Part shown: positions 4,373-50,125 of the stretch, piece after piece | How positions within the stretch are numbered: the stretch's first letter is position 1 | Layout: each line of letters opens with the position of its first letter | NCBI RefSeq assembly: GCF_014207985.1 | Contig: NZ_JACHMI010000001.1 | Span: 9,531,001-9,595,000 of the forward strand | Direction of reading: 5' to 3' | Origin: Nonomuraea rubra | GTDB taxonomy: Bacteria; Actinomycetota; Actinomycetes; Streptosporangiales; Streptosporangiaceae | DNA: 64,000 nt | Notes under the pieces: model-generated | Told to the model about the DNA's origin: nothing | Database searches by the model: none | The model's input: only the letters and a program-made list of their open reading frames with translations | Made by a program: the position numbers and the translations under genes

Positions 4373-5802
4373 GCCGGCGCCCCCAGGTAGACGGTGACCG
4401 TCCGGGTGTAGAACTCCCTGGCCGCCCGCCCCTGCTCCTTGGGCCCGAACCCGCTCTGCTTGGCCCCGCCGAACGGCACGTACGGGAACGTCCCCGCCGA
4501 TTCGGAGTTGACGTGCAGCACGCCCACCTCCAGCCGCTCCACCGCCGACAGCGCCACCCCGAGGTCGCGGGTGAAGACGGCCGCCGACAGGCCGTGGTCG
4601 CTGAGGTTGGCCAGCCCGAACGCCTCCTCCGTGCTCGACGCGCGCACGGCGCCGACCACGGGCCCGAACAGCTCGGTACGCCAGAAGTCCACCCCGGTCC
4701 CCGGCAGGTCCAGCACGGTCGGCGGCACGAACCAGCCCTCGCGCTCCAGCGGCGAGGCGCCGGCCAGCGGCTTGGCGCCCTCGCCCACGGCCAGCCGCAC
4801 CCCGGCCGACACGCGTTCCCGCGCGGCCGAGCTCACCAGCGGGCCCATCTCCACCTCCGGCGACAGCGGGTCGCCCACGACGAGCCGCGCGGCCCGCTCG
4901 GCCACCCGCTCCAGCAGCTCGTCGGCGACCTGCGAGGCCACGATGAGCCGCGAGGTGGCCGTGCACTTCTGCCCGGTGGACCGGAACGCCCCCAGGCAGA
5001 CCTGCTCGGCGGCGTGGCCGAGGTCGGCGTCGGCGAGCACGACGGAGGCGTTCTTGCCGCCCATCTCGGTCTGCACCGGCTTGCCCAGCTCGCCGCAGCG
5101 CGCGATGACGGCCCGCCCGACGTCCGTGGACCCGGTGAACGACACGGCGTCCACGCCCGGGTGGCCGACGATGGCCGAGCCCGCCTCGGCCTCGCCGTAC
5201 ACGAGGTTGAGCACCCCGTCCGGCAGGCCGGCCTCCACCAGCGCCTTCGCCAGGCGGTAGGCCAGCAGCGGCACCAGCGAGGACGGCTTCCACACCACGG
5301 TGTTGCCGTAGGTCAGCGCGGGGCCGAGCTTCCAGGCGGGGATGGCGATCGGGAAGTTGAACGGGGTGATCAGCCCGGCGACGCCGATCGGCTTGCGCAC
5401 GACCAGCACGTTCTCGCCGGGGCGCGGGGAGGCGAAGACCTCGCCGCTCTCCCGGTCGGCCTCGCTCGCGTAGTAGCGCAGGATGCGGGCCGCGCCCCTG
5501 ACCTCGGCGACGGCCTCGGCCAGCGTCTTGCCCTCCTCGCGGGCCAGCTCCGCGCCCCACTCCCCGGCGCTCGCGTCCACGAGGTCGGCGGCTCCCGTCA
5601 GCACGGCGGCGCGGGCGTGGTGCGGGGTCGCGGCCCAGCCGGGCGCGGCCTCGCGGGCCGCGCCGATCGCCCGCTCCACCTCGCCCGCGGAGGCGAACCG
5701 CCCGCGCGCCACGACCTCGGCGGGCCGCGCGGGGTTGGTGTCGGCGAACTCCTCGCCCTCCCCCTCGGCCCAGCGGCCACCGATGAGATTCAGAACGTCC
5801 AT
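4369..5802 (-). CDS. NAD(P)-dependent aldehyde dehydrogenase, probable glutarate/succinate semialdehyde dehydrogenase
   Basis: This is a full-length class I aldehyde dehydrogenase of 477 residues. It has the oxyanion Asn149 (TPFNF), cofactor motif FTGSTDVG (222-229), general base Glu246 (TEMGGK) and nucleophile Cys280 in FRSTGQKCTATSR. I start at ATG 5802, preceded by AGGGTG; a TTG two codons earlier is possible. It is first in a leftward unit with a CoA-transferase and two regulators, divergent from a glutaryl-CoA dehydrogenase. That context suggests oxidation of glutarate semialdehyde to glutarate in lysine, cadaverine or 5-aminovalerate breakdown. The sequence alone does not fix the substrate. 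Confidence 0.9.
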   Translation of the reverse strand: MDVLNLIGGRWAEGEGEEFADTNPARPAEVVARGRFASAGEVERAIGAAREAAPGWAATPHHARAAVLTGAADLVDASAGEWGAELAREEGKTLAEAVAEVRGAARILRYYASEADRESGEVFASPRPGENVLVVRKPIGVAGLITPFNFPIAIPAWKLGPALTYGNTVVWKPSSLVPLLAYRLAKALVEAGLPDGVLNLVYGEAEAGSAIVGHPGVDAVSFTGSTDVGRAVIARCGELGKPVQTEMGGKNASVVLADADLGHAAEQVCLGAFRSTGQKCTATSRLIVASQVADELLERVAERAARLVVGDPLSPEVEMGPLVSSAARERVSAGVRLAVGEGAKPLAGASPLEREGWFVPPTVLDLPGTGVDFWRTELFGPVVGAVRASSTEEAFGLANLSDHGLSAAVFTRDLGVALSAVERLEVGVLHVNSESAGTFPYVPFGGAKQSGFGPKEQGRAAREFYTRTVTVYLGAPA

Positions 5803-5827
5803 GGTCAACGCACCCTAACTGTGCCAT

Positions 5828-5855
5828 ATTGGATTTTCAATATTGGATCCAAAAT
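5828..5855. promoter_or_regulatory. Tandem operator-like element between divergent catabolic genes
   Basis: Two 14-bp units lie end to end: ATTGGATTTTCAAT (5828-5841) and ATTGGATCCAAAAT (5842-5855). The second contains the perfect palindrome TTGGATCCAA, and the first keeps the ATTG/CAAT arms. They fill much of the 65-bp gap between the aldehyde dehydrogenase and acyl-CoA dehydrogenase starts. This is the expected place for the FCD regulator encoded in the same operon. Assignment to that regulator is inference. Confidence 0.65.
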
Positions 5856-5867
5856 ACGGAGAGGTCG

Positions 5868-7031
<1,164 letters not shown>

Positions 7032-7034
7032 CAC

Positions 7035-8099
7035 TCAGAACGTCTGCCAGGTCGCCTCGGTGACCTGGCAGGGCCCGCCCCGGTGCACCCGGAGCCGCCC
7101 GGCCGGCAGGTCGAGGCCGATCGTCGCCACGGTCTCCCAGCGCTGGTTGATCGGCTGGGTGAGGTCGGGGTGGGCGCAGACGGGCGCGCCCTCGGGGGCG
7201 TGGCTGAGCATGGTCAGCGCCCGGCCGTTCAGCTCGGCGCCGCTCAGCCCTTCGACGTTGTCCTCCAGGTGCCGCATGCGGTCGTAGGTGCCCGGCCGCT
7301 CGGTGGCGTGCCGCTCCCCCGCCGCCAGGCCGGCGTCGAGGAAGTGGTTGCAGTGCAGCAGGACGCCGTCGGGGCCCGGCGGGATGGCGGCCACCCCCGC
7401 CGGGGAGATCTCGATCGAGGCGGCTCCGGTCCCGGTCACCACCGTGATGACCGTGGAGGCCGAGACCCGGGCCGAGCGGGCGAGGTCCACCGCCTCCTCC
7501 ACGGAGGACGCCTCGTCGAGGATGCGGCGGGCGATCAGATGCACCGGCACTCCCGTCTCCGGGGTGTCGGAGTCGTGGCGCAGGATGTTGAAGTGCACGC
7601 CGAGGCCCGCCGTGGTGACGCCGATCTTGGCCAGCGTGCCCGCCTCGGTGAACGTGCGCACGACGCGGCCCGAGTCCTGCTCGTACTCCCACAACACCGG
7701 CGCGTCGCGCAGGTGGTCGTGCCAGTCCCACGTCTGCACCGTGCGCGGCGGGCCGTCCTGCGGCAGCACCACGGAGGTCGAGCACTCGCCGTGCCCGACC
7801 ATGTCGATGGCGGCCAGGATCTCGGTGCGGGCGTTGATCACGCCGACCTGCCACGGCTCCAGCCCCGCGCCCGCCGCGATGCCGGCGATCTCCTCTGCCA
7901 GGGGCGGCGCCCAGGCGGCGCAGGCGTCCAGCGCCCGCTCGCCCCACGCGCGCACCTGCGCGTCACCCGCCCCGGCGGCCCTGAAGAGGTCGGTGTAGCC
8001 GGCGAGGTTGGCGGCGATCCGCTTGCGCAGGTGCGTGCCGAACTCCTTGCCACGGGCGCGGGGGTCGGTCTGGCTGGAGGTGAACGTGGGAAATGTCAT
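7035..8099 (-). CDS. C45 family autoproteolytic acyltransferase/hydrolase (isopenicillin N acyltransferase-like), 354 aa
   Basis: This Ntn-fold protein resembles acyl-CoA:6-aminopenicillanate acyltransferase. NARTEIL (about 89-95) is followed by HGECSTSVV with Cys106, the expected autoprocessing site and nucleophile. VQTWDWHDHL and HFNILRHDSD are typical of the family. Members cleave or transfer acyl groups on amides and lactams. It is the last gene of the nine-gene operon, overlapping the PaiB-like gene by 4 bp. It may remove N-acyl groups from imported substrates, which is inference. No signal peptide is visible, so cytoplasmic action is likely. Confidence 0.8.
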   Translation of the reverse strand: MTFPTFTSSQTDPRARGKEFGTHLRKRIAANLAGYTDLFRAAGAGDAQVRAWGERALDACAAWAPPLAEEIAGIAAGAGLEPWQVGVINARTEILAAIDMVGHGECSTSVVLPQDGPPRTVQTWDWHDHLRDAPVLWEYEQDSGRVVRTFTEAGTLAKIGVTTAGLGVHFNILRHDSDTPETGVPVHLIARRILDEASSVEEAVDLARSARVSASTVITVVTGTGAASIEISPAGVAAIPPGPDGVLLHCNHFLDAGLAAGERHATERPGTYDRMRHLEDNVEGLSGAELNGRALTMLSHAPEGAPVCAHPDLTQPINQRWETVATIGLDLPAGRLRVHRGGPCQVTEATWQTF

Positions 8100-8680
8100 G
8101 ACCTGTCCATCAACTCGGCGAGCCTCGGGTTGTCGGCGCCGGCGGAGGCGCGCACGCGAGCGTACCGGTCGGCGTCAATGTCCTGGCTCAGCTTGAACAC
8201 GCTCTGCCGCGTACGAACATGCACGCGAAAGGCCACTACCCCGGGCAGCAGCGCGCGGAACCTCTCCCTGGAGGCGGGCGTCGGCTCCCAGGACGGCGAG
8301 CGCAGCGACTCCGCCGCCGCCACCGTGCGCTCCACCACCTCCAGCGCGTCGTCGATCAGCTCCACCCTGCCGGTCACGTGCACGGCCGCGTAGTCCCAGG
8401 TCGGCACGGCCGGATCGGTGCCGTACACGGTGGGCGAGACGTAACCGTGCGGCCCGGAGAACACCACCAGCACCTCGGGCGCGGACTCGAACGCGCGCCA
8501 CTGCGGGTTCGCCCTGGCCAGGTGCCCGACCAGCGTGCCCGCCTCGCCCAGCAGGACGGGCGTGTGCGTGGCCACGGGCACCCCGTCCACCGTGCTGACG
8601 ACCAGGGCGAACGGGTTCCGCCTGATCAGCTCGTCCTCGTGGGCGGGGTCCTTGGCCGCGTAACGCGGGGACGTCCACAT
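8096..8680 (-). CDS. paiB: PaiB family FMN-binding negative regulator, 194 aa
   Basis: The protein opens MWTSPRYAAKD and carries the split-barrel flavin-binding fold of Bacillus PaiB. FALVVSTVDGVPVATHTPVLL (about 23-43), VFSGPHGYVSP and TWDYAAVHVTG are characteristic. PaiB is linked to polyamine and degradation control in Bacillus, and most homologues are uncharacterised flavoproteins. Here it sits between the NylC-like hydrolase (4-bp gap) and the C45 protein (4-bp overlap). That agrees with an amine- or amide-related operon. Whether it regulates or acts as a flavoenzyme cannot be told. Confidence 0.85.
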   Translation of the reverse strand: MWTSPRYAAKDPAHEDELIRRNPFALVVSTVDGVPVATHTPVLLGEAGTLVGHLARANPQWRAFESAPEVLVVFSGPHGYVSPTVYGTDPAVPTWDYAAVHVTGRVELIDDALEVVERTVAAAESLRSPSWEPTPASRERFRALLPGVVAFRVHVRTRQSVFKLSQDIDADRYARVRASAGADNPRLAELMDRS

Positions 8681-8684
8681 GCCG

Positions 8685-9665
8685 CTACTCCGCCGCGCTC
8701 AGGATGGCGTCCCACGCGACCTCGGAGGCCAGCGTGCCCAGGCCCGTGGGCTTGACGCCGGACAGCTCGACCTCGTCGGTCGTCATCGCGAACATCGTGT
8801 CACCGTCGGTCAGCGTGTGGAACGGCTGGATGCCGCGGTGCATCGAGCTGTGCACCTGGCGGCCCACCTGCAGCAGCTCGACGTCCGTCAGCTTCACGTT
8901 GGTGATCATCACGGTCAGCGTCGTGTTGCCCATGACGGCGGGGGCCCCGGTCAGCTCGGCGTAGTCGGCGCTCGGGTGGCGGCGCTCGCCCAGCTCGGCG
9001 TGGTAGTTGCCGCGCACCACCCGGCCCTGCCTGTCGATCACCGCGCCCACCGAGTTGACCACCGTCGCGACCAGCACCTTGATCTCGCCGAACGTGCCGA
9101 ACGCGGCGCCCTGCCCGGCGAACTCGGCCCGGCCGAAGTCCACCTTGCCCGCGCTGGCCGTACGCCCCGCGCCGCACCGGCCCACCGGGAACTCGCCCTC
9201 CCTCGCCCACCGCACCGCGGCCCTGCCCAGCTCGGCGTCCGGGTAGACGGCGGTGTCGCGGCAGGAGAAGTCGTAGATCACCGCCCCGGACACCAGTTGC
9301 AGCTCGTCCCACTTGGTGAGGTTGTCCCTGCGGGACAGCAGCTCGTCGCTCACCCCCGCCGCCGCGGCCAGCCCGTACACCGAGCCGCCCGCCAGGCAGA
9401 TGGCGTGGTTGTAGTCGTAGCCGCCGCTCATGCCGACCGCGCCGCCGCGCGCGTCCACGGCCGTGCGGGCGCCCTGCGGGAGGTGGATCACGGTGCAGCC
9501 GGTGGGGCCCTCGCCGTACTCGGCGGTGCCGACGTACACGCCGGGCAGGTCGAACGCGACCGAGCCGCGTCCCGGGCTGGGCTGCGGGGTGAGCGGCAGG
9601 TCCGCGTTGCGCGGGACGCCGGGCGCGAACGCAGACGGCGTCGCGAGCCGGTGCTCGGTGGTCAT
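8685..9665 (-). CDS. P1/S58 family N-terminal hydrolase, NylC-like (6-aminohexanoate-oligomer hydrolase family)
   Basis: This 326-residue protein closely resembles my recollection of NylC, the nylon-oligomer endohydrolase, along its length. TAVDARGGAVGMSGGYDYNH and SSMHRGIQPFH are near-identical blocks. The autoprocessing pair Asn247-Thr248 sits in VMGNTTLTVM. Residues equivalent to the NylC active-site set as I remember it are present: Tyr131, Lys174, Asn204, Thr248, Asp287 and Asp289. The family also includes D-aminopeptidase DmpA and beta-peptidyl aminopeptidase BapA, so the substrate may be beta-peptides or other oligoamides. No secretion signal is seen, so it probably acts on substrates brought in by the ABC importer. 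Its ATG overlaps the ATPase stop. Confidence 0.9.
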   Translation of the reverse strand: MTTEHRLATPSAFAPGVPRNADLPLTPQPSPGRGSVAFDLPGVYVGTAEYGEGPTGCTVIHLPQGARTAVDARGGAVGMSGGYDYNHAICLAGGSVYGLAAAAGVSDELLSRRDNLTKWDELQLVSGAVIYDFSCRDTAVYPDAELGRAAVRWAREGEFPVGRCGAGRTASAGKVDFGRAEFAGQGAAFGTFGEIKVLVATVVNSVGAVIDRQGRVVRGNYHAELGERRHPSADYAELTGAPAVMGNTTLTVMITNVKLTDVELLQVGRQVHSSMHRGIQPFHTLTDGDTMFAMTTDEVELSGVKPTGLGTLASEVAWDAILSAAE

Positions 9666-10396
9666 AGGGCCTCCAGCAGTTGCTTCGAGTACTCGTGTGC
9701 GGGTGCGGTGTAGAAGGTGCGGGTGTCGGCGGTCTCCACGACCTCGCCCGCGCGCATGACGGCGATCCGGTCGGCGACGTAGCGGACGGCGCCGAGGTCG
9801 TGGGAGATGAACAGGGCGCTGAAGCCGTACTCCGCCTGCAGGTCCTTGATCAGGTTGAGGATCTGCACCTGTACGGAGACGTCCAGCGCGCTGACGGCCT
9901 CGTCGAAGACGAGGAACCCCGGCCTGGTGACCAGGGCGCGGGCGATGGAGACGCGCTGGCGCTGGCCGCCGGACAGCTCGTGCGGGTACCGGCCGGCGAA
10001 GTCCGCGCTCAGGCCGACGTGCTCCAGCATCTCGGTGACGGCGTTCCCGTCCGTACGGCCCAGCACGTCGAGCGGCTCGGCGACGCTCTGGCCGACCCGC
10101 ATGCGCGGGTTCAGAGACCAGTGCGGGTGCTGGAGCACCGCCTGCATGCGGCCGGCCAGCTCGCGCCTGCGCCTGGGGAACGGCCGGCCGTCGAACCTGA
10201 CGGTGCCCGCGGTGGGACGTTGCAGGCCGAGCGCCACCCGGCTGGTGGTCGTCTTGCCGGAGCCCGACTCGCCGACCAGCCCGAGCGTCTCGCCCTCGCC
10301 GACCGACAGCGAGACGTGCCGCATCGCGTCGAGGCGGATGCGACGGAACGGGGGCCCGGCGGCAAAGGTGACGGTGACGTCGTCGAGTTCGAGCAT
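9662..10396 (-). CDS. Oligopeptide/dipeptide-type ABC transporter ATP-binding protein (DppF-like), 244 aa
   Basis: Walker A is GESGSGKTTTSR (about 42-53), the signature LSGGQRQRVSIARAL lies near 144, and Walker B LVFDEAVSALD near 166. FISHDLGAVRYVADRIAVM is the H-loop region. It lacks the C-terminal oligopeptide cysteine motif that its partner has, as is common for a shorter second ATPase. The ATG overlaps the stop of the first ATPase in TGATG. It supplies half of the ATPase dimer for the importer in this operon. Confidence 0.92.
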   Translation of the reverse strand: MLELDDVTVTFAAGPPFRRIRLDAMRHVSLSVGEGETLGLVGESGSGKTTTSRVALGLQRPTAGTVRFDGRPFPRRRRELAGRMQAVLQHPHWSLNPRMRVGQSVAEPLDVLGRTDGNAVTEMLEHVGLSADFAGRYPHELSGGQRQRVSIARALVTRPGFLVFDEAVSALDVSVQVQILNLIKDLQAEYGFSALFISHDLGAVRYVADRIAVMRAGEVVETADTRTFYTAPAHEYSKQLLEAL

Positions 10397-11352
10397 CAGG
10401 CCTTCACCTCCTCCTGCTGGGAGGGCCCGAGCCGCAGGCCCGCGGCGCGGTGGCACAGCACGTCCTGGTCGCGGACGCGCACCGGAGCCGGTCGCTCGTG
10501 CTCGCACCGTTCCTCGGCGAACGCGCAGCGCGGCGCGAAGGCGCAGCCGGGGGACGGCCCCGTGAGAACGGGCGGGCGGCCGGGCACCGGCTCCAGGCGC
10601 ACCCCGTGGGCCGCGGCGGCGGGCGCCGACCCGGCCAGCGCCGCCGTGTAGGGGTGGGCGGGGTTGCCCAGCACCTCGCGGGCCGGCCCCGACTCGACCA
10701 CGCGGCCCCCGTACATGACGGCCACCCGGTCGCAGCGGCGGGCCACGGCGGGCAGGTCGTGGCTGAGCCACAGGATGCTCGTGCCCGCCTCGGCGGCCAG
10801 CGAGAAGATCATGTTCGACACCTCCTCGCGCACCTGGCTGTCCAGCGCGGCGGTCGGCTCGTCGGCGACGAGCAGGTCGGGCGAGGTGGCCATGGCCATC
10901 GCGATCGCCACCCGCTGCGCCATGCCGCCGGAGAGCTGGTGCGGGTACGCGCGCAGCACGCGCGGGTCGTCCAGCCTGACCCGCCCCAGGTGGAAGCGCA
11001 CGTCACCGCCCCGCCCGAGCACCAGGCGGAGCTGGGCGCCGACGCGCATGGTCGGGTCGAGCGAGCCGATCGGGTCCTGGAAGACGAACCCGAGATGCCG
11101 CCTGCGCAGGTGCCGCAGCCTGCCGTCCGGCAGGTCGAACACGGGCTCCCCCGCAACCAGCACCTCGCCCTCGGTGCGCCGCGCGGCCCGCGGCAGCAGG
11201 CGGCCGGCGGCGGAGCCGAGCGTGGACTTGCCGGACCCGCTCTCGCCGACCAGCCCGACCGTCTCGCCCTGCGCCACCTCCAGGGAGGCGCCGTCGAGCG
11301 CGCGGGTGCGGTCGTAGTCGATCACCAGGTTCCGTACGGAGAGCAGGCTCAT
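10396..11352 (-). CDS. Oligopeptide/dipeptide-type ABC transporter ATP-binding protein (DppD-like), 318 aa
   Basis: Walker A GESGSGKSTLGS is near residue 35, the signature LSGGMAQRVAIAMAMA near 140, Walker B LLVADEPTAALD near 160 and the switch His in WLSHDL. The C terminus has the oligopeptide-transporter extension PGCAFAPRCAFAEERC, whose spaced cysteines can hold an iron-sulfur cluster in some homologues. It starts inside the permease stop. It is one of the two non-identical ATPases of the import system. Confidence 0.92.
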   Translation of the reverse strand: MSLLSVRNLVIDYDRTRALDGASLEVAQGETVGLVGESGSGKSTLGSAAGRLLPRAARRTEGEVLVAGEPVFDLPDGRLRHLRRRHLGFVFQDPIGSLDPTMRVGAQLRLVLGRGGDVRFHLGRVRLDDPRVLRAYPHQLSGGMAQRVAIAMAMATSPDLLVADEPTAALDSQVREEVSNMIFSLAAEAGTSILWLSHDLPAVARRCDRVAVMYGGRVVESGPAREVLGNPAHPYTAALAGSAPAAAAHGVRLEPVPGRPPVLTGPSPGCAFAPRCAFAEERCEHERPAPVRVRDQDVLCHRAAGLRLGPSQQEEVKA

Positions 11353-12167
11353 GTCAGTGACCTCGTCTCTCGGGGTTCGAGCCGGTCGCGCAGCCCGTCG
11401 CCGACCACGTTGATGGCCAGGATGGCGGCCACCAGCACCACGCCGGGGCCGAGGATCAGCCAGGGCGCGGCGATCATGTACGTGCCGCCCTGCTGGATGA
11501 GCACCCCGAGCGACGCCTGCGGCGGCTGCACCCCGAAGCCGAGGAAGCTCAGCCCGCCCTCGACCGCGATGCCGACCGACAGCGCGTACGTGCCCTGCAC
11601 GGCGATCGTGCCCGCCACGTTCGGCAGCACGTGGCGCAGCAGCACGCGCGGCAGCCGGGCGCCGCTGATCACGGCGGAGGTGACGTAGTCACGCTGCGAG
11701 ACGGCCACGGCGGCGGCCCGGACCAGCCGGGTCATCAGCGGGATCGTCACCAGCACGATGCCCGCCAGCGCCGCCGTCTGCCCGGGGCCGAGCACGGCCG
11801 CGACCAGGATGGCCAGCACGATGGCCGGGAAGGAGTAGAGCACTTCCACCAGGCGCATCACCAGCTCGTTCAGGTAACCGCCACGGTATCCGGCGAGGAT
11901 GCCGAACGCGGCGCTCAGCACCGCCGTGACCAGCACGGCGATCGACGAGAGCAGCAGCGTGGTGCCGACGCCCTCCATGACGCGGGGCAGCACCGAGCGC
12001 CCCAGGTTGTCGGTGCCCAGCCACCAGCCGGGCCCCGGCGGCTGCAGGCGCGGGCCGACGATGGCGTCCGGGTCTCCCCCGGCGCCGGCGAGCGACCCGA
12101 GCGCGAACAGCACCAGGACCGCCAGGCAGGCGAGCCCGCCGATGGACAGCCGGTCCAGCTTCCTCAC
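11349..12167 (-). CDS. Oligopeptide/dipeptide-type ABC transporter permease (DppC-like), 272 aa
   Basis: About six membrane helices are visible. An N-terminal helix is followed by a periplasmic-side GTDNLGRSVLPRVMEG loop, diagnostic of DppC/OppC. The ATPase-coupling EAA-like loop ISGARLPRVLLRHVLPN lies near residue 165. The GTG start overlaps the preceding permease stop (GTGA), and its own stop overlaps the next ATG. It pairs with the DppB-like permease upstream to form the transmembrane channel. Confidence 0.9.
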   Translation of the reverse strand: MRKLDRLSIGGLACLAVLVLFALGSLAGAGGDPDAIVGPRLQPPGPGWWLGTDNLGRSVLPRVMEGVGTTLLLSSIAVLVTAVLSAAFGILAGYRGGYLNELVMRLVEVLYSFPAIVLAILVAAVLGPGQTAALAGIVLVTIPLMTRLVRAAAVAVSQRDYVTSAVISGARLPRVLLRHVLPNVAGTIAVQGTYALSVGIAVEGGLSFLGFGVQPPQASLGVLIQQGGTYMIAAPWLILGPGVVLVAAILAINVVGDGLRDRLEPRETRSLT

Positions 12168-13132
12168 GAGCGCCTCCCCGCCATGACTCCCAGCCGGGGG
12201 TCGATGGCTCCGACGAGCAGGTCGATCAGCACGTTCATGACGATGAACACCCCGGCGGCCAGCAGCACCCCGGCCTGCACGACCGCGTAGTCGCGGCGGC
12301 CGACGGCCTGCACGAGGTAGGAGCCGACGCCCGGCAGGTTGAACACGTGCTCCACGATCAGCGCGCCGCCCAGCAGGTACGCGGTGGTCGTGCCGACGAG
12401 CGTGACCACGGGGGTGGCGGCGTTGCGCAGCACGTGGTGCCTGACGATGAACCACGGCGACTCGCCGCGCCCGACGGCGGCCGTGACGTACGGCTCGACC
12501 AGCACGCCCATGACGGCGTCGCGGGTGGTCCTGGCGGTCACCGAGATGGAGAAGACCGACAGGACGGCGGCGGGCAGGATCATCGTGGCCAGGTTCGCGG
12601 CGGGGTCCTGGGTGAGCGGTATCCAGGAGCCGACCTCCAGGCCGAGCGTGTACCGGGAGAAGACGAACACGACCAGGCTGCCCAGCACGAACTCCGGCAC
12701 GCTGACGCCCAGGCCGCTGACCAGCCGGCCGAGGCCCCCGCCGCCGGTCGGGCGGGCGCGGACGGCGGTCAGCACGCCCAGCGGGACCCCGAGCAGCACG
12801 CTCGCGGCCACCGCCAGCACGGTCAGCTCGGCCGTCACCGGCAGGCGGGCCAGCAGCTCCGCGCCGACCGGCTGGCGGCTGATCATCGAGATGCCGAAGT
12901 CGCCGCCGGCGACGGCGCCCAGCCAGTGCCCGTACTGCATGAAGACCGGCTGGTCGAGCCCGTAGCGGGCGGCCAGCTCCGCCTTCTGCTCGGCGGTGGC
13001 GAACGGCCCGAGCACGGTCTCCGCGAAGCCGCCCGGCATCAGGCGCACGGCGGCGAAGATCAGCACGGAGACGCCCAGGAGCGTGGCGGCCGAGCTGAGC
13101 GCCCGGCCTGACCACCACATCAGCAGCCGCAT
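12164..13132 (-). CDS. Oligopeptide/dipeptide-type ABC transporter permease (DppB-like), 322 aa
   Basis: The N-terminal helix WSGRALSSAATLLGVSVLIF is followed by the extracytoplasmic AARYGLDQPVFMQYGHWL segment and five further helices. The coupling loop GRGESPWFIVRHHVLRNA lies near residue 220. This order is typical of DppB/OppB. It begins 2 bp after the substrate-binding protein stop and overlaps the DppC-like gene by 4 bp, so the transporter genes are translationally linked. Confidence 0.9.
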   Translation of the reverse strand: MRLLMWWSGRALSSAATLLGVSVLIFAAVRLMPGGFAETVLGPFATAEQKAELAARYGLDQPVFMQYGHWLGAVAGGDFGISMISRQPVGAELLARLPVTAELTVLAVAASVLLGVPLGVLTAVRARPTGGGGLGRLVSGLGVSVPEFVLGSLVVFVFSRYTLGLEVGSWIPLTQDPAANLATMILPAAVLSVFSISVTARTTRDAVMGVLVEPYVTAAVGRGESPWFIVRHHVLRNAATPVVTLVGTTTAYLLGGALIVEHVFNLPGVGSYLVQAVGRRDYAVVQAGVLLAAGVFIVMNVLIDLLVGAIDPRLGVMAGRRS

Positions 13133-13134
13133 GG

Positions 13135-14751
13135 TTACTGCGGCTTCTTCACGCGGGCGTCGGCGACCAGGCGCAGCACGTTGCCGTAGCCCTCGGTGGC
13201 GTACAGGCTCGGGCTGAGCGCGTCGGCGCGGTAGGCGACGGTGGAAGGGCGGGTGACCAGCGGGATCATCTGCGCGTCCGCGTCGGCCCTGGCGCAGACG
13301 TCGGCCAGCGCCTTCGCCCGGTCCTGCGGCTGCTGGTTGGCCGCGTCGATCAGCTTGCTGAGCTCCGGGTCCGGCTTCATGAAGCCGGCGTTGAAGCCGG
13401 CCGTCTCCGGGTTCCACCACTTGGTGACCATGCCGGGGTCGGCGTACCCGGCGAACCAGGACATGGCGGCGTCGAACTCGGCGGGCGCCTTGCCGTACAC
13501 CTTGCCGGACCAGCTCGCCTCGTCCAGCTGCTCGATCTTGACGGTGATGCCGGCCTGCTGGAGGTTCTGCTGGATCACCTGGGCGACGGCGGGGGCGGGC
13601 TCGGTGTTGAAGATGGTGAGCGTGAACGACAGGTTCTGCGCGCCCGCCTCGGCCAGCAGCTGCTTGGCCTCGTCCAGGCTCCTGGCGGCCGACGGGAGCG
13701 CGGCCGGGTCGCAGGCGCCCGGCAGGCCGGCCGGGGTGATCGCGGTCGGTTTCCCCTTGCCGCCGAGCGCCACGTCGGCGATCTGCTGGGTGTCGAGGGC
13801 GATGCCGATCGCCTGGCGCACCTTGGGGTCGGCGAGCTTCGAGCCCGGCTTCAGGCTGTTGAGCATCAGGTAGTAGAAGTCCGTGGTGGCCTGGGTGACG
13901 ACCTTGACGTCCTTCGCGCCGGCCAGCATGGTCTCGGAGTCCACGTTGCCCAGGGTGGCCAGGGCGGCGCCGCCGTTCTGCAGGGCCGCGATGCGGGCGG
14001 CCTCCTCGGGGGCGATCGTGATGTTGAGGGTGTCGGCGGCGGGCTTGCCCTGGTTCCAGTACGCGTCGTTGCGCTTGAACGTCCACGAGACGTCCTGGCG
14101 GTGGTTCTCCACCACGTACGGGCCGGTGCCGAGCAGCGTGGTGGCCGGATCGACCGACTTGTCGTCGATCTCCTTCATCGGCAGGATCGCGGCGGGCACG
14201 TTGGCCAGGGCGGCCAGGAACGGCGTGTACGGCTCCTTCAGCGTGACCCTGACCTTGCCGTCGCCGTCCTTCGTGATCTCCTCGACCGGGCCGAGCTGCC
14301 CCGCCCACACCGACTTGGAGGCCAGCAGCCGCTTGAGGCTGCCCACGACGTCGTCGGCCGTCATCTCCCTGCCGTTGGAGAACGTGACGCCCTTGCGCAG
14401 GTGGAAGACGTACGTCTTGTCGTCGGGGGTGTCCCACTTCTCGGCGAGCAGCGGCTGGACACCGAAGTCCGGGCCCACCGTGACCAGCGTCTCGTACGAC
14501 AGCGAGAGGAGCTGCCAGGTCGTGGCCACGTCGGCGAGCTGCGGGTCGTAGCCGGTGGCGGCGCCGCTGTCGATGTGCACCTGAAGGTTGAGCGTGCCGC
14601 CCTTCGCCAGGGCCTGGTCGGCGACGGCGAGAAAGCCGGGGGCGGCGGTCTCCTGGGCGGCGGGGGCCGGGGTGGTGGTCGTTCCGGTGGCGGCGCAGGC
14701 CGTTGCCAGCAGGGCTGCCGCGACACCGCAGGCCAGGCGTATGGGACGCAT
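13135..14751 (-). CDS. ABC transporter substrate-binding lipoprotein (family 5 / DppA-like), 538 aa
   Basis: The N terminus MRPIRLACGVAAALLATACA is a lipoprotein signal with a lipobox ending in Cys19. The mature part is a full family-5 solute-binding protein with YDPQLADVATTWQLLSLSYE, LAEKWDTPDDKTYVFHLRKG and LLGTGPYVVENH. A strong ribosome site (GAGGAG) precedes ATG 14751. This is the outside-facing specificity determinant of the importer. It follows the amine oxidase by 14 bp, suggesting that the imported ligand carries or releases a primary amine. Confidence 0.92.
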   Translation of the reverse strand: MRPIRLACGVAAALLATACAATGTTTTPAPAAQETAAPGFLAVADQALAKGGTLNLQVHIDSGAATGYDPQLADVATTWQLLSLSYETLVTVGPDFGVQPLLAEKWDTPDDKTYVFHLRKGVTFSNGREMTADDVVGSLKRLLASKSVWAGQLGPVEEITKDGDGKVRVTLKEPYTPFLAALANVPAAILPMKEIDDKSVDPATTLLGTGPYVVENHRQDVSWTFKRNDAYWNQGKPAADTLNITIAPEEAARIAALQNGGAALATLGNVDSETMLAGAKDVKVVTQATTDFYYLMLNSLKPGSKLADPKVRQAIGIALDTQQIADVALGGKGKPTAITPAGLPGACDPAALPSAARSLDEAKQLLAEAGAQNLSFTLTIFNTEPAPAVAQVIQQNLQQAGITVKIEQLDEASWSGKVYGKAPAEFDAAMSWFAGYADPGMVTKWWNPETAGFNAGFMKPDPELSKLIDAANQQPQDRAKALADVCARADADAQMIPLVTRPSTVAYRADALSPSLYATEGYGNVLRLVADARVKKPQ

Positions 14752-14765
14752 GGGCCTCTTCTCCT

Positions 14766-16670
14766 CTAGTGGCAGGATGAGCGTTCCGAGGCGCTCGGCG
14801 GGACGTCGAGCGTGGGGTTCCGGTCGAAGAAGCCGACCGGCTTGAGTACGAACCCGCAGGTGTCGACCGGCATGATCGGCCAGTCCTCGGTGCGGGGGAA
14901 GTGCGTCAGGCCGAACGTGTGCCACAGCACGATGTCCTGCCCGTCGAGGTCGCGGTCGGCCCTGGTGTAGGCGGGCAGGCCCGCGCCGCCGGGATGCTGG
15001 TTGACCAGGTCTCCGGCGGGATAGCGCTCCGCGGGGTGGTAGCGGGTGACCCACAGGTGGCTGGTCGCGAACTCGGCCCTGCGGTGGATGCTGGAGCCCT
15101 CGGCGGCCATCAGGGTCGGCTTGCCCTCGGCGTGCAGCGCGTAGCCGACGGGGCGGCCCAGGCGGTTGCGCACGCCGGGGTTGACGACGTGCCAGGTGCG
15201 CTCCGCCTTCAGGTCGGCGTCGCGCCTGGCCTCCCGTTCGGTACGCAGCCGGGTGACGGTGCGGCCGAACGCGTTGCCGTACCGGCTGTCGAGCGGCGTG
15301 GCCTCGACCTCGTCCACGGCGTTGGCCACGCCGTCCACCGTCATGTCCAGCCGGGCGCTGAACAGGTGCTGGTGGTACGGCGCCGCCAGGCCGGGCGCGA
15401 CCTCGGACGCGTACGGGGCGGCCCGGTCGTCGTAGGCGCCGGTGAAGACGATGCCGGTGGCCTTGACCTCCAGCTCGATGGTGCCGTCGAGGTAGAGGTA
15501 CCAGTAGAAGCCGTAGTCGTAGTTGCCGACGGTCACGAAGAACGAGATCACCAGGCGCCGCTGCCTGCGCGTCTCCCTGGAGCCGTTGGCCGGGTCGGTG
15601 TGCTTCCACAGCACGCCGTAGTCCTCCTCGTGCATGCAGATGGCGTTCCTGATCACCTTGGGCGTGCCGGCGCCGTCGGTGACGACCGCGTCGAAGTAGG
15701 TGATCTCGCCGAGGCAGTCGCAGCCGAGTTCGAGGGAGTTGGCGAGCTTGCCGAGCTGGTACTCGCCGGTGTCGAAGTAGTTCTGCCAGAAGCGGATGGG
15801 GCTCGGGTCGCCGTACGGGACGACCATCTCGGCCACCGACGCCCGGTAGACGATCGGCCTGGTGCGGCCGCCGTCCTCGAAGCCGATCCGGTGCAGGGTG
15901 AGGCCCTCGCGCATGTCGTAGCCGAGCCGCAGGCTCCACTTCTCCCAGGTGACGAGCGGGCCGTCGACGGTGAAGCTCGGGCCGTCCGGCTGGGTGATGT
16001 GGATGGGCTTCTGCGTGGTGCGGTGCTCGACGTGGGTGTAGTCGCCGCTCTCCTGGGGGATGGGCTGGGGGCCGGTGTCCACGATCTCCAGCACCTCGCC
16101 CTTGACCAGGTCGACGTACGCGACCAGGCCGTCCACGGGGTGGGCCCAGGGGAGGCTCTCGGGGGTGGGCATCCGGTGCGCCAGCACCCTGGCGACCCGC
16201 CTGCCCTCCTCCTTCGCCAGCCCGAAGTGGCCGGCGCTGAGCGCGGCCAGGTAGACGCCCGCCGGGTCCTCGATGCCCCTCCTGGCCAGGGCCTGCGCCC
16301 AGTCCCCGTCCTCGCGGAGCACCCTGCGGACCAGGGCGTGCTCCTCGTCCAGCATCGGCACCTGGCCGTCGGTCAGGGGGTCGATCGGGGCGGCGGTCTC
16401 CACCTTGCCGTCGCCGATGGACACGATCACGTCCTGCGCGGCCTCGGTGGCCAGGTCCAGCAGGAGCGCGCGGGCCCTGCGGGCGGGGCGGGCGGTGCCG
16501 GACTCGTACGCCAGCACCTGGTCCTTCGGCGGCTCCTCCAGCCCGAGATAGGCCACCCGGACCGTCTCGGTCAGCAGGCCGTCCGTCATGAGAACCCGTC
16601 TGACCTCGTCGATCTCCTGCGCGGCGAGCGGGTCGAGAGGGTGGGGACGCATCCCGGTGGACAGGTGCAA
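14766..16670 (-). CDS. Copper/topaquinone-containing primary amine oxidase
   Basis: This enzyme oxidises primary amines to aldehydes, releasing ammonia and hydrogen peroxide. Numbering from the internal Met at 16652, the topaquinone precursor is Tyr378 in VGNYDYGF, the catalytic base is Asp294 in NYFDTGEYQ, and copper ligands His427 and His429 sit in PYHQHLF. A third His is in GLTHFPRTEDW. The block NSLELGCDCLGEITYF matches Arthrobacter phenethylamine and histamine oxidases. I start at TTG 16670 because AAAGGGG precedes it; ATG 16652 is the alternative. It is first in the nine-gene operon, directly downstream of an 18-bp palindrome. No signal peptide is seen. Confidence 0.92.
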   Translation of the reverse strand: MHLSTGMRPHPLDPLAAQEIDEVRRVLMTDGLLTETVRVAYLGLEEPPKDQVLAYESGTARPARRARALLLDLATEAAQDVIVSIGDGKVETAAPIDPLTDGQVPMLDEEHALVRRVLREDGDWAQALARRGIEDPAGVYLAALSAGHFGLAKEEGRRVARVLAHRMPTPESLPWAHPVDGLVAYVDLVKGEVLEIVDTGPQPIPQESGDYTHVEHRTTQKPIHITQPDGPSFTVDGPLVTWEKWSLRLGYDMREGLTLHRIGFEDGGRTRPIVYRASVAEMVVPYGDPSPIRFWQNYFDTGEYQLGKLANSLELGCDCLGEITYFDAVVTDGAGTPKVIRNAICMHEEDYGVLWKHTDPANGSRETRRQRRLVISFFVTVGNYDYGFYWYLYLDGTIELEVKATGIVFTGAYDDRAAPYASEVAPGLAAPYHQHLFSARLDMTVDGVANAVDEVEATPLDSRYGNAFGRTVTRLRTEREARRDADLKAERTWHVVNPGVRNRLGRPVGYALHAEGKPTLMAAEGSSIHRRAEFATSHLWVTRYHPAERYPAGDLVNQHPGGAGLPAYTRADRDLDGQDIVLWHTFGLTHFPRTEDWPIMPVDTCGFVLKPVGFFDRNPTLDVPPSASERSSCH

Positions 16671-16688
16671 CGTTCGGCCCCTTTCTGC

Positions 16689-16706
16689 TGCCGGAACGTT
16701 CCGGCA
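16689..16706. promoter_or_regulatory. 18-bp perfect palindrome, probable LacI-family operator
   Basis: TGCCGGAACGTTCCGGCA is a perfect inverted repeat centred on a CpG, the usual form of a LacI/PurR-type operator. It lies 18 bp upstream of the amine oxidase start and about 100 bp upstream of the divergent LacI gene. It could block the operon promoter and possibly autoregulate the repressor. Confidence 0.75.
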
Positions 16707-16806: not shown

Positions 16807-17940
16807 ATGGGCCGCTACCATCAGGGCGTGCAAGCAGACGAGCCGGTCACGATCCTCACCGTCGCCCGCGAGGCGGGGGTGTCCAAGACGACGGCCTCCG
16901 ACGCGTTGCGCGGCTCGGGGCGGGTGTCCGAGCGCACCCGCGAGACCGTGGTCGCGGTGGCCGAACGGCTCGGCTACGTGCCCAACGGCTCCGCCCGCCA
17001 CCTGCGCAAGGCCAGCACCGGCACGATCGGGCTGCACGTGCCCGAGGTGCTGACCCGGTCCTCGTACTACATGTCGTTCGTGTTCGGCGTGGTGGAGCAG
17101 GCGGCGCGGCACGACTACGACGTCACGCTGATCACCTCAGGGCAGCGCCGCGCGCGGCCGCCGCGCGTGGACGGGCTGGTGCTCGGCGACCCCCTCGGCG
17201 GGGATCCCGTGGTGGAGAGCCTGATGGCGACCGGGCTGCCGGCCGTCTCGTGCGAGCGGTTCCCCGGGGCGCGGCAGGCGGACGGGGTGGTGTGGTCGGA
17301 GCACGCGGTCATGCTCGCGCGGCTGCTCGGCCACCTGCGCTCGGCGGGCGCGGCGCGGCCGGGGCTCATCGTGGCGGGGGACGAGAGCGACTGGGCGGCC
17401 AGCGTGCACCGGGGGTACCAGGAGTGGTGCGCCGGGCAGGGGATCGTGCCGCTGGTGCGCAGGGTGTCGTTCGACGCGACGGGCGACGAGGTACGCGCCG
17501 CCGCCCGCGCCCTGCTCGGGGCGGACGGCGGCGACGGCGCGCCCGGCACGGCCGGTGACGCGTCCTCGGCGGGTCGCGCGCTCGCCGCGGCCGGTGACGC
17601 GTCCGGGACGGCTGGTGGCGGGGGGCCGATGGACGCGCTGGTGTGCGCGCCCGCGGGGGCCGCGACCGAGGTGGCGCCGCTGTTGCGGGAGGCCGGGGCG
17701 AGCGTGCTGCTCGCCTCGTGCGTGGACAGCGCCGCCACCCGGATGGCCGACCCGCCCATCACGGCGATCGACCTGCGCCCGCGCGAGGCGGGAGCGAGCT
17801 GCGCGGAGTTGCTGTTCGAACTGCTGTCGGGCGCGGCGCAGCCGGGCACGGAACGTGTCCATCCGATCGAACTGGAGATCCGCGCCTCGACCACGCCGCG
17901 CCCGGAGGAGGCAGGCGCCCGGCCAGGCCACGCCCGTTAG
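16807..17940 (+). CDS. LacI family transcriptional regulator, divergent from the amine oxidase operon, 377 aa
   Basis: The DNA-binding helix-turn-helix TVAREAGVSKTTASDALRG lies at about residues 18-36, with hinge YVPNGSARHLRKASTGTIG after it. A periplasmic-binding-protein-like effector domain follows. Near residues 240-275 is an Ala/Gly-rich insertion with AGDAS repeated, which probably forms a disordered loop. The ATG at 16807 has GAGGGGGG upstream; GTG 16828 is an alternative. Divergent placement and the intervening 18-bp palindrome make it the likely repressor of the amine oxidase/ABC/NylC-like operon. The inducer is unknown. Confidence 0.9.
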   Translation: MGRYHQGVQADEPVTILTVAREAGVSKTTASDALRGSGRVSERTRETVVAVAERLGYVPNGSARHLRKASTGTIGLHVPEVLTRSSYYMSFVFGVVEQAARHDYDVTLITSGQRRARPPRVDGLVLGDPLGGDPVVESLMATGLPAVSCERFPGARQADGVVWSEHAVMLARLLGHLRSAGAARPGLIVAGDESDWAASVHRGYQEWCAGQGIVPLVRRVSFDATGDEVRAAARALLGADGGDGAPGTAGDASSAGRALAAAGDASGTAGGGGPMDALVCAPAGAATEVAPLLREAGASVLLASCVDSAATRMADPPITAIDLRPREAGASCAELLFELLSGAAQPGTERVHPIELEIRASTTPRPEEAGARPGHAR

Positions 17941-17978
17941 GAGGCACCGCCCGGCCAGGCCGCGCCCGGAGGAGGCTC
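17915..17978 (+). repeat. Imperfect tandem duplication at the 3' end of the LacI gene
   Basis: A block containing CGCCCGGCCAGGCC followed by GCCCG and GGAGGC occurs twice, about 32 bp apart. The first copy encodes the last residues of the LacI protein and the second spans the gap to the convergent oxidoreductase gene. This probably reflects slippage, and no function is evident. Confidence 0.45.
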
Positions 17979-19134
17979 AGACGAGGGCCGGTTCCACGGA
18001 GCGCGGGGCGCCCTTCACGTAGACGTAGGAGCCCGGCTTGCGGGCCTCGCGGCGGATCCTCCCCATGGCGAGCTTGCAGGTCGCCTCCTTGATCGCCGCC
18101 CCCGGCCGGCCCCCGATGAAGAAGTTCACCGGGGTGTCGTCCTTGCGGGCGAACTGCCGGATGCCGGCGTGCCGGCCGATGCTGACGCACGCCCCCGTGA
18201 AGCGCACGTTGATCAGCTCCGGCTCGGTGCCCGCGATGCGGCTCAGCACGGTGTCGGCGGCCTGCGCCCCGAGCGGCCCCGCGGCGTAGCAGCTCATCCG
18301 CAGCGCCCGGCCCGACGGCGCGGCGGCGTCCCCCGCCGCGACGATGCGGTCGTCGTCGATGCTGGTCAGCGTCTCGTCGGTGAGCAGCCGCCCCAGCTCG
18401 TCGGTACGCAGCCCGCTCGCGACCGCGAGCTGCGGCACGCCGAACCCGGTCGCCCAGACGGTCAGCCCGCTCTGACGCACCGCACCATCGGTGAGGACGA
18501 CCCCGCCCTGCCGGACCTCGCTCACCGCGACCCCTTCGAGCACCTCGACACCGTGCCGGGACAACCAGCCCGCGATGTACCGGCGGCTCGACGCGCTGAA
18601 GGTCGGCGCCAGGGCCTGGCCGCACACCAGCGTGACCCTGCGCCCCTGCTCGGCCAGCTCGGCGGCCGTCTCGATGCCGGTCAGCCCGCCGCCGACCACG
18701 GTGACGGAGGCGTCGCGGGGCACCTCCGCCAGCCCGGCGCGCAGCCGCTGCGCGGACTCCCATTCGGCGAGGTCGTACGCGAACTCGGCCACGCCGGGCA
18801 CCGACGGCGGGATCGCCCCGGTGCTGCCGACCGCGTAGATGACGTAGTCGTAGTCCAGCGCGCGCCCCGACTCCAGCCGCACCTCGCGGGCGCCGGTGTC
18901 GATGCGCGCGGCGCTGTCCACGACCAGCTCGACGCCCTCACCGAGCAGCGTGCCGTAGTCGGCCGTGGCCTCGCCGGTGCCTGCCACGTACTGGTGCAGC
19001 CGGATCCGGTCGACGAACTGCGGGCGGGGATTGACCAGCGTGATGTGCACGTCGGAACGCATCCGCAGGTGGTTGGCCGCGAGGGTGCCCGCGTAACCGC
19101 CGCCGACCACTACGATCTTGTGAGGTGTGGACAT
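17977..19134 (-). CDS. FAD-dependent NAD(P)/pyridine nucleotide-disulfide oxidoreductase (NDH-2-like), 385 aa
   Basis: Two Rossmann motifs are clear: IVVVGGGYAGTLAANHL at residues 7-23 for FAD, and VVGGGLTGIETAAELA near 155 for NAD(P)H. The C-terminal FAD motif is RIVAAGDAAAPSG. There is no membrane anchor beyond possible amphipathic helices. It resembles type II NADH dehydrogenase-like proteins. It lies 26 bp behind a four-helix membrane protein, and both are divergent from an ECF41 sigma factor, the usual neighbourhood for such oxidoreductases. It is probably a redox or quinone reductase induced by that sigma factor. Confidence 0.88.
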   Translation of the reverse strand: MSTPHKIVVVGGGYAGTLAANHLRMRSDVHITLVNPRPQFVDRIRLHQYVAGTGEATADYGTLLGEGVELVVDSAARIDTGAREVRLESGRALDYDYVIYAVGSTGAIPPSVPGVAEFAYDLAEWESAQRLRAGLAEVPRDASVTVVGGGLTGIETAAELAEQGRRVTLVCGQALAPTFSASSRRYIAGWLSRHGVEVLEGVAVSEVRQGGVVLTDGAVRQSGLTVWATGFGVPQLAVASGLRTDELGRLLTDETLTSIDDDRIVAAGDAAAPSGRALRMSCYAAGPLGAQAADTVLSRIAGTEPELINVRFTGACVSIGRHAGIRQFARKDDTPVNFFIGGRPGAAIKEATCKLAMGRIRREARKPGSYVYVKGAPRSVEPALV

Positions 19135-19160
19135 GATGAGGTTCCCTTCGATATCAGCGA

Positions 19161-19538
19161 TCAGGAGGCCTTGAGCACGCGGCTGAGCTGGAGGAGGCTC
19201 AGGCCGAACATCAGCACCCCCAGCGGGATGTGCAGGGTCGTCACGTGCGCGATGCCCAGCGCGACCTGCGCCAGCGTGGCCGCGAGGAACCCGGCCGCGT
19301 TCAGGATCGGCCGGGGCGAGCCGCCGCCCGGCCGCCACGCCAGGATCGCGGCGGCCACGTGCACCACGGCGACGCCGAACACGCTGTACGCCGCGGCGCT
19401 GTGCAGCACGTGCCCGCCGGGCGTGGTCAGCAGCAGCCCGGCGGTGACCGGGGCGGCGAAGACGGCCAAAGTCTGCAGGGCGATCGCGACCCGCAGGAAC
19501 GCGAGGTTGCCCCGCTTGATCATCGTGGGTGTGGACAT
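19161..19538 (-). CDS. Small four-helix membrane protein, 125 aa
   Basis: I do not recognise the family with certainty. Four hydrophobic helices are visible at about residues 14-36, 45-66, 78-97 and 101-118. The last two contain AATLAQVALGIAHVTTL and IPLGVLMFGLSLLQL. Histidines lie in the second helix region (GGHVLHSAAAY, VVHVAAA) and at GIAHVT, so heme or quinone contact is possible but unproven. It is first in the unit with the FAD oxidoreductase and could anchor or partner it. The candidate promoter at 19593-19619 lies 55 nt upstream. Confidence 0.75.
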   Translation of the reverse strand: MSTPTMIKRGNLAFLRVAIALQTLAVFAAPVTAGLLLTTPGGHVLHSAAAYSVFGVAVVHVAAAILAWRPGGGSPRPILNAAGFLAATLAQVALGIAHVTTLHIPLGVLMFGLSLLQLSRVLKAS

Positions 19539-19592
19539 CAGGTCTTCTCTTCTCCGGCTCGTGCCTCGGGCCTTGTTGGCTCCGCTACGTCC

Positions 19593-19619
19593 GACAGCGC
19601 TGCCACCGGAAATGTGAGG
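19593..19619 (-). promoter_or_regulatory. Candidate ECF41 promoter, leftward (membrane protein/oxidoreductase unit)
   Basis: Read on the minus strand this is CCTCACA, then 16 bases, then TGTC. It resembles the published ECF41 promoter pattern TGTCACA-16-CGTC in spacing and core bases. An element of the same form faces the other way 12 bp away, upstream of the sigma factor gene. Confidence 0.6.
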
Positions 19620-19631
19620 TGGCGGCCCCGG

Positions 19632-19658
19632 CCTCACAGTCCGCCGGGCTGTCTTGTC
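19632..19658 (+). promoter_or_regulatory. Candidate ECF41 promoter, rightward (sigma factor/P450 unit)
   Basis: CCTCACA at 19632-19638 and TGTC at 19655-19658 are separated by exactly 16 bases, the same sequence and spacing as the opposing element. It lies 42 nt before the sigma factor start and would make the gene autoregulated. Confidence 0.6.
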
Positions 19659-19700
19659 GAATGGGTGAAGCCGGAGACGACCAAGGGAGTCAGCGACACG

Positions 19701-50087: not shown

Positions 50088-50125
50088 CGGTGATCGCATG
50101 ACGGTGATCGCATGACGGTGATCGC
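50076..50125 (+). repeat. 14-bp tandem repeat (3.6 copies) creating a relay of overlapping ATGA start/stop sites
   Basis: The unit GTGATCGCATGACG occurs at 50076, 50090 and 50104, with a partial fourth copy. Each unit contains ATGA. The first ATGA couples to the upstream gene's stop. Translation from 50084 or 50098 gives only Met-Thr-Val-Ile-Ala before stopping at the next ATGA, and the third ATG (50112) opens the pseudokinase frame. Confidence 0.92.

Follow-up and report, generated by a model that had tools for sequence, protein, structure and literature searches.

The 64-kb stretch of the Nonomuraea rubra genome analysed here (64,000 nucleotides of contig NZ_JACHMI010000001.1, positions 9,531,001 to 9,595,000; hereafter the window) contains a minus-strand run of nine genes (7035-16670) that joins a peptide-type ABC importer to two autoprocessing hydrolases, a copper amine oxidase and a homologue of the N-hydroxylamine dehydratase NohD. 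On balance, we favour the view that this run is a LacI-controlled operon for the catabolism of an amide or hydroxamate of N-hydroxycadaverine, most likely the desferrioxamine-type siderophores of other microbes. The argument draws on the gene content of the operon and its conservation, its operator, the catalytic residues of its products, the family membership of the NohD homologue, and the linkage of a glutarate module to those copies of the operon that carry the amine oxidase.

Reading leftwards, the operon begins with a copper/topaquinone primary amine oxidase (14766-16670; NCBIfam NF008559, 875 bits against a cut-off of 651), which resembles the phenylethylamine oxidase of Arthrobacter globiformis (AGAO) and has its start best set at the TTG at 16670, with AAAGGGG upstream. 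There follow a family-5 substrate-binding lipoprotein (13135-14751; Pfam SBP_bac_5, 267 bits, with a lipobox assigned by eye), an OppB/NikB-like permease (12164-13132), an OppC/NikC-like permease (11349-12167), an OppD-like ATPase (10396-11352) and an OppF-like ATPase (9662-10396), the last four identified by Pfam and NCBIfam profile matches. The final three genes encode a NylC-family Ntn hydrolase of the S58/P1 type (8685-9665; 391 bits and 59% identity to solved NylC), the NohD homologue, annotated as PaiB/FMN-binding (8096-8680), and a C45 autoprocessing Ntn hydrolase/acyltransferase (7035-8099; NCBIfam NF040521, 244 bits against a cut-off of 85). Neighbouring genes overlap by 1 or 4 bp or lie 2, 4 or 14 bp apart. 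A first-pass annotation of this DNA had described nine leftward genes with gaps of at most 14 bp, and all nine are present in that order and spacing; profile matches uphold its identification of the topaquinone amine oxidase, the lipoprotein-dependent importer with two permeases and two ATPases, the NylC-like protein and the C45 protein.

The gene set recurs widely. With an alignment of 30 NylC homologues as query, the best 80 matches yielded 78 loci, which sample close relatives and are no census, and the window proteins were mapped onto these at fixed identity thresholds. A full importer accompanied NylC in 63 of these loci, from 21 genera, and among the 63 importer loci C45 was found in 57, LacI in 56, NohD in 45 and the amine oxidase in 42. 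Of the six without C45, three are from Acrocarpospora, one is from Thermocatellispora and the other two are short contigs; the seven without LacI include two from Leucobacter in which LacI falls just below the threshold. Most of the set is found from Nonomuraea and Prauserella to Microbacterium, and the alphaproteobacterium Aestuariivirga has it minus the amine oxidase and NohD. The survey of co-occurrence that the first-pass annotation had proposed thus finds genes that keep company strongly, and a chance neighbourhood is rejected by this recurrence and by the conserved operator described below. The 15 loci with an incomplete importer are four from Micromonospora (NylC and LacI only), four from Thermomicrobiales, one each from Tengunoibacter, Nonomuraea basaltis and a Planctomycetota metagenome-assembled genome, two from Agromyces that are second NylC loci there, one from Rhizobiales with one permease missing at threshold, and one on a short Microbacterium contig. 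In N. basaltis (L070) the operon appears incomplete, as the amine oxidase, binding protein, NohD and LacI were not found beside NylC at the thresholds used. The source genome measures 12.9 Mb, and its NylC shares 97% identity with the Nonomuraea gerenzanensis protein. Of 35 other genomes of the genus, 13 hold an orthologue of 78% identity or more, so that the operon is common in the genus without being universal.

Between the amine oxidase gene and a divergent LacI-family regulator (16807-17940, plus strand; Pfam LacI and Peripla_BP_3) lies a perfect 18-bp palindrome, TGCCGGAACGTTCCGGCA (16689-16706), a probable LacI operator whose edge coincides with the end coordinate, 16706, of the first-pass annotation. 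With up to three mismatches allowed it has no second match in the window, and shuffled sequences average 0.07 matches. Its core, GCCGGAACGTTCCGGC, occurs exactly once per genome in 18 of 19 whole genomes searched, always at the NylC operon locus; the exception is Pseudonocardia (G064), which has a one-mismatch form. The exact core is present in 40 of the 42 amine-oxidase loci, the remaining two being the Pseudonocardia form and locus L050, where no GCCGGAACGTTCCGGC was seen. The operator makes likely the LacI control that the first-pass annotation had claimed for the operon. In several loci (L063, L064, L067, L071 and L082 of Leucobacter, L065 of Sediminivirga and L069 of Microcella) an A/T-rich near-palindrome around ACG(A/T)T, for example TTTAAAACGTTTTAAA, replaces the GC-rich operator upstream of the binding-protein gene, an apparent change in LacI specificity.

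The catalytic apparatus of both hydrolases is retained. N247/T248, K174, N204, D287 and D289 of the window NylC align with N266/T267, K189, N219, D306 and D308 of NylC, which we take to be the autocleavage Asn/Thr and the catalytic Lys, Asn and Asp; T248, D287, D289 and N204 are kept in 88 of 88 homologues, N247 in 87 and K174 in 86. The E105-C106-S107 motif of C45 is kept in 66 of 66 proteins, and with it the Cys nucleophile C106. The solved nylon hydrolase (PDB 3axg/5xyg), which shares family and catalytic residues with the window protein, is 96% identical to a protein of Microcella and 93% identical to one of Leucobacter celer, both encoded beside the importer. On the 7.4-kb Microcella contig the importer is visible and C45 is not; the L. 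celer locus has C45, NohD and LacI. In a tree of 69 NylC rows, thinned from 89 and with several long branches whose order is unsure, the PDB enzyme clusters with these two proteins, and this grouping with importer-operon copies suggests that the nylon hydrolase most likely descends from this operon type. NylC is known from plasmid-borne nylon-oligomer degradation, whereas in the window operon its companions are the importer, C45, NohD and an amine oxidase. Desferrioxamines chemically resemble aliphatic nylon, and NylC would hydrolyse nylon as a side activity, the polymer being an aliphatic polyamide of similar chemistry. Recent adaptation to synthetic nylon oligomers is very improbable: the hydrolase does belong to the true NylC family, but the operon type spans 21 genera with a conserved operator and deep, well-supported clades, and the catabolism linked to it is of C5, not C6, compounds. 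Agromyces also has a second-site pair of NylC and C45 genes with its own variant operator (L095:9884-12030 and L106:9884-12030).

What the first-pass annotation had called a PaiB-like flavoprotein is instead a homologue of a heme-type N-hydroxylamine dehydratase. The protein scores 315 bits with NohD, 130 with piperazate synthase and 109 with PaiB, and on these scores and the deposited NohD complexes we reject a PaiB flavoprotein or regulator identity. It matches NohD along the full chain at high identity and has the site residues, and dehydratase activity is predicted. The deposited complexes (PDB 9oqs series, released 2025-12-03) hold N-hydroxylated ornithine; T98 and K167 of NohD, which are mutated in them, correspond to T94 and K163 of the window protein, and these are invariant in 47 of 47 proteins. 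Over 181 residues compared, solved NohD has 100% identity with P0145 (Actinomadura sp. ATCC 31491), and likewise with the product of the gene between NylC and C45 in locus L129 (genome G025), a full copy of the operon with the same operator as the window. Since the window gene would encode a heme-type N-hydroxylamine dehydratase, the amine freed by the hydrolases is probably N-hydroxylated.

In seven loci, from Agromyces, Herbiconiux, Nocardiopsis, Leifsonia and Microbacterium paraoxydans, the operon takes a second form, with no NohD and with a divergent gene for a MOSC reductase behind a variant operator. Two operator variants are present in these loci, one before the binding-protein gene and one before the divergent gene, which ties the latter to the same regulator. 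The two MOSC proteins of the seven that were domain-scanned combine MOSC with FAD and/or NAD and 2Fe-2S domains; the MOSC proteins mARC and YcbX, for example, are reductases of N-hydroxylated compounds. The MOSC gene thereby adds 7 importer loci to the 45 with NohD, and the two occur together in none of the 63. That one regulon should come in alternative versions, each with its own unrelated candidate N-OH enzyme, speaks for an N-OH group in the substrate. At the level of whole genomes, a NohD copy of at least 48% identity was found in 11 of 11 amine-oxidase- or NohD-type genomes examined, our own included, and all six MOSC-type genomes, Aestuariivirga and Acrocarpospora have a copy of at most 40% identity or none. 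A fusion of an APH kinase and a class III aminotransferase (NCBIfam PRK06149) goes with the MOSC form (L090:1-4561, and the left ends of L073, L076, L079, L080 and L096), and the same fusion lies directly after NylC in Acrocarpospora (L057:11010-14111; 1353 bits against a cut-off of 973). We take it to resemble amino-alcohol kinase/phospho-lyase pairs, and by that analogy the substrate of the MOSC form may be an amine flanked by a hydroxyl group.

The distribution of NohD bears directly on whether the hydroxyl is needed at all. A non-hydroxylated amide of cadaverine or 5-aminovalerate, such as an N-acyl-cadaverine or a 5-aminovaleryl peptide, would leave NohD to act elsewhere or to protect against hydroxylamines. 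A C5 amine alone would suffice for the glutarate module discussed below, NylC cuts plain aliphatic amides according to its PDB naming, and the loci of Phytoactinopolyspora and Thermocatellispora have no NohD. We nevertheless regard such a substrate as unlikely: NohD is found in most importer loci, an unrelated and probably N-OH-directed reductase replaces it in seven, and one genome of each of the two genera without NohD in the locus holds a copy elsewhere (49% and 54% identity).

In the amine oxidase, the topaquinone (TPQ) Tyr of the NYD motif, three copper His and the base Asp, roles that we presume for these residues, are kept in 43 of 43 copies. The closest solved enzyme is the Arthrobacter phenylethylamine oxidase (788 bits), with which the TPQ and copper sites are shared, but AGAO F105 and Y307, positions that we take to be channel-lining, are H and L in all 43 amine oxidases compared, which weakens an aromatic amine as substrate. 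Omega-amino-acid oligomers, or an amide whose amine is ordinary or aromatic (phenylethylamine, tyramine, polyamines), in either case without an N-hydroxyl, are consequently very unlikely substrates in our view; kinship to the phenylethylamine oxidase would favour them, but two aromatic positions are lost, the linked catabolic genes are of glutarate type and NohD would go unexplained. The amide-linked amine compound envisaged in the first-pass annotation survives in part, as uptake, amide cleavage and amine oxidation are indeed assembled in one operon, but the freed amine is probably N-hydroxylated and an aromatic one is disfavoured; no finding hints at beta-peptides, at which no test was aimed. 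The Opp/Nik family-5 importer is complete, its binding protein, two permeases and two ATPases all passing Pfam gathering scores; as to its ligand, no NCBIfam equivalog model among the matches listed reached its cut-off.

The genes beyond the operon point to the carbon skeleton of the freed amine. Convergent with it is a glutaryl-CoA dehydrogenase (GCDH) gene (5829-7031, plus strand; 630 bits to 3sf6 and 396 bits to 1siq, presumably the human enzyme), whose six best solved matches are all named glutaryl-CoA dehydrogenase, one of them 'putative'. Further left, on the minus strand, stand an aldehyde dehydrogenase (ALDH) gene (4369-5808; nearest models those of 2-ketoglutarate-semialdehyde dehydrogenase, below cut-off), a CaiB-type CoA-transferase gene (3209-4372; nearest model succinate--glutarate CoA-transferase, below cut-off) and, at the end of this cluster, a GntR-family regulator identified by profile match (2550-3212). 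The route to glutarate served by DavTD/GabTD, SUGCT and GCDH starts from cadaverine or 5-aminovalerate as the amine, and the flanking GCDH, CaiB and ALDH genes thus point to a C5 amine. Catabolism of the C6 nylon monomer is rejected, the linked dehydrogenase being of the glutaryl type. The catabolism of cadaverine and 5-aminovalerate through glutarate to crotonyl-CoA shares GCDH, CaiB, ALDH and, in some lineages, a transaminase of the 4-aminobutyrate (GABA) type with the operon's surroundings; unlike that pathway, the window module stands together with importer genes, a pair of Ntn hydrolases, NohD and an amine oxidase.

GCDH and/or CaiB accompany 32 of 42 amine-oxidase loci against 0 of the 21 importer loci that lack this oxidase, a locus count that phylogeny inflates and in which flank lengths differ between loci. 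Microbacterium holds both states, 12 loci with GCDH/CaiB and M. paraoxydans without. The arrangement recurs in independent lineages. CaiB is present in 13 of 13 amine-oxidase loci of Microbacterium and Frigoribacterium, and all four of these that were extended also have a class III transaminase, GCDH and ALDH; the three Phytoactinopolyspora loci all have GCDH, CaiB and a class III transaminase. ALDH is linked in the Streptosporangium copies as well as in those of Microbacterium and Frigoribacterium. The transaminase of locus L049 passes the GABA-transaminase model (718 bits against a cut-off of 639), and no GABA-type transaminase was found in the window. Flank extension revealed no GCDH on either side in Prauserella, Murinocardiopsis and Aestuariivirga, or on the left in Leucobacter komagatae, Leifsonia, two Agromyces, Herbiconiux and Nocardiopsis; apart from the kinase/aminotransferase fusion, these flanks held nothing further but a CaiB of 33% identity in Murinocardiopsis and an ALDH of 42% in Nocardiopsis.

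An amine that is N-hydroxylated and has five carbons, an amide and soil actinomycetes as hosts together lead us to desferrioxamine. In the pathway that we propose, the step order, cellular location, flux and division of bonds between the two hydrolases would be as follows. The family-5 importer would take up the compound, probably iron-free, and NylC and C45 would cut its amide and hydroxamate bonds to give succinate and N-hydroxycadaverine. NohD would dehydrate the NHOH end, and hydrolysis of the resulting imine would leave an aldehyde; the copper amine oxidase would turn the primary amine end into an aldehyde. ALDH, with a GABA/5-aminovalerate-type transaminase in some lineages, would yield glutarate, which the CaiB CoA-transferase would convert to glutaryl-CoA and glutaryl-CoA dehydrogenase to crotonyl-CoA. 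A bolder version, to which we give even chances, holds that NylC is by descent a hydrolase of desferrioxamine, a polyamide of N-hydroxycadaverine and succinate, that the operon eats the hydroxamate siderophores of others for carbon and nitrogen, and that the N-OH group has found two solutions, heme NohD with the amine oxidase, or a molybdenum-type MOSC reductase with the kinase/aminotransferase fusion. NIS siderophore synthetase genes (PF04183) were found in 9 of 20 genomes tried, our own included, and in 0 of 7 Microbacteriaceae tried, a distribution compatible with scavenging in Microbacteriaceae and uninformative in large actinomycetes.

A different hydroxylated substrate would be a peptide siderophore or antibiotic containing N5-hydroxyornithine or N6-hydroxylysine, imported in peptide form for cleavage by the two Ntn hydrolases. 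N-hydroxylated ornithine is bound in the NohD mutant structures, the closest kin of NohD, the piperazate synthases, use N5-hydroxyornithine, and the importer is of the peptide/nickel class. We think this improbable all the same, as these residues would, by established pathways, yield glutamate- or aminoadipate-semialdehyde and not glutarate, N-hydroxylated amino acids offer the amine oxidase no simple primary amine, and NylC is named for unbranched aliphatic amides.

Several observations weigh against the desferrioxamine pathway. The ligand deposited with NohD is N-hydroxylated ornithine, not N-hydroxycadaverine; neither NohD nor the MOSC gene is in view in 11 of 63 importer loci, some of them on short contigs; and Zimmermannella (L101) breaks the pattern by combining a variant operator with a NohD-like gene. 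The kinase/aminotransferase fusion of MOSC-type loci is not explained by a desferrioxamine substrate. Among the glutarate genes, CaiB scores 333 bits with its nearest model (330 in Microbacterium) against a cut-off of 750, ALDH 430 bits with the alpha-ketoglutaric semialdehyde dehydrogenase model against 770, and GCDH 200 bits with GlutCoADH_Des (cut-off 470) and at best 250 with FadE (cut-off 600), which counts against the GCDH label. Counted by genus, linkage to GCDH/CaiB falls to 4 of 11 amine-oxidase genera versus 0 of 11 without the amine oxidase; of the other amine-oxidase genera, Streptosporangium has ALDH only and the remainder none in view. The operator is not repeated at the window glutarate genes, which GntR may control. 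Known desferrioxamine importers belong to another class, and the solved chains nearest to the binding protein, at about 120 bits, belong to proteins that bind nickel or peptides, with no close relative among them. The substrate and activities of the window proteins are, moreover, deduced from sequence and context.

Growth on desferrioxamine as such has precedent: its use as a bacterial carbon and nitrogen source through amide hydrolysis is reported in PMC11800396 and PMC10866069. Azospirillum irakense and Mesorhizobium loti are reported to grow in this way, by the kind of hydrolysis proposed for the operon, but the accessible parts of these accounts name no genes. PMC10866069 tells against our pathway on two counts, as the degraders characterised to date leave the hydroxamate groups intact and the M. 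loti enzyme is called a serine protease. NohD-type organisms would have to go beyond the amide-only hydrolysis of these degraders.

In a search of the open-access PMC literature, we found no account of the operon or of a natural substrate of NylC, and the accessible portions of two NylC papers name none; the study behind the NohD structures released on 2025-12-03 may discuss the neighbourhood. As the native context of the nylon hydrolase, this operon type would explain the origin of a nylon-degrading enzyme. NylC is a lead enzyme for nylon recycling, and its native operon points to a natural substrate and to dozens of natural variants. If the desferrioxamine pathway is true, it would assign genes to the bacterial consumption of desferrioxamine, which affects iron availability in soil, and would give a physiological function to a heme dehydratase with relatives that carry the annotation of FMN-binding regulators.

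Plasmids carry related arrangements. There was no record of pOAD2 among the 13 plasmid records listed; two Variovorax plasmids have the importer-NylC core without C45 or NohD, and in V. boronicumulans (L126:4722-14538) an annotated M81 metallopeptidase comes after the core, accompanied by a second, divergent P1 peptidase and a regulator of the RpiR type. An S58 gene adjoins an amidase on a Sinorhizobium plasmid. C45 genes with no NylC within 12 kb occur on Burkholderia, Streptomyces and Sinorhizobium plasmids, the last also with matches to the MOSC reductase (weak, 29%) and to LacI. Elsewhere in the window, a NAD(P)/FAD oxidoreductase (17977-19338) and a Sigma-70-family, ECF-like protein (19230-20609) are encoded on opposite strands, and an LPMO_10 lytic polysaccharide monooxygenase lies at 21877-22542. 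An FtsK/SpoIIIE-family ATPase of 1319 aa (40654-44613) and a protein kinase domain protein (50112-51935) are perhaps part of a type VII-like secretion locus.

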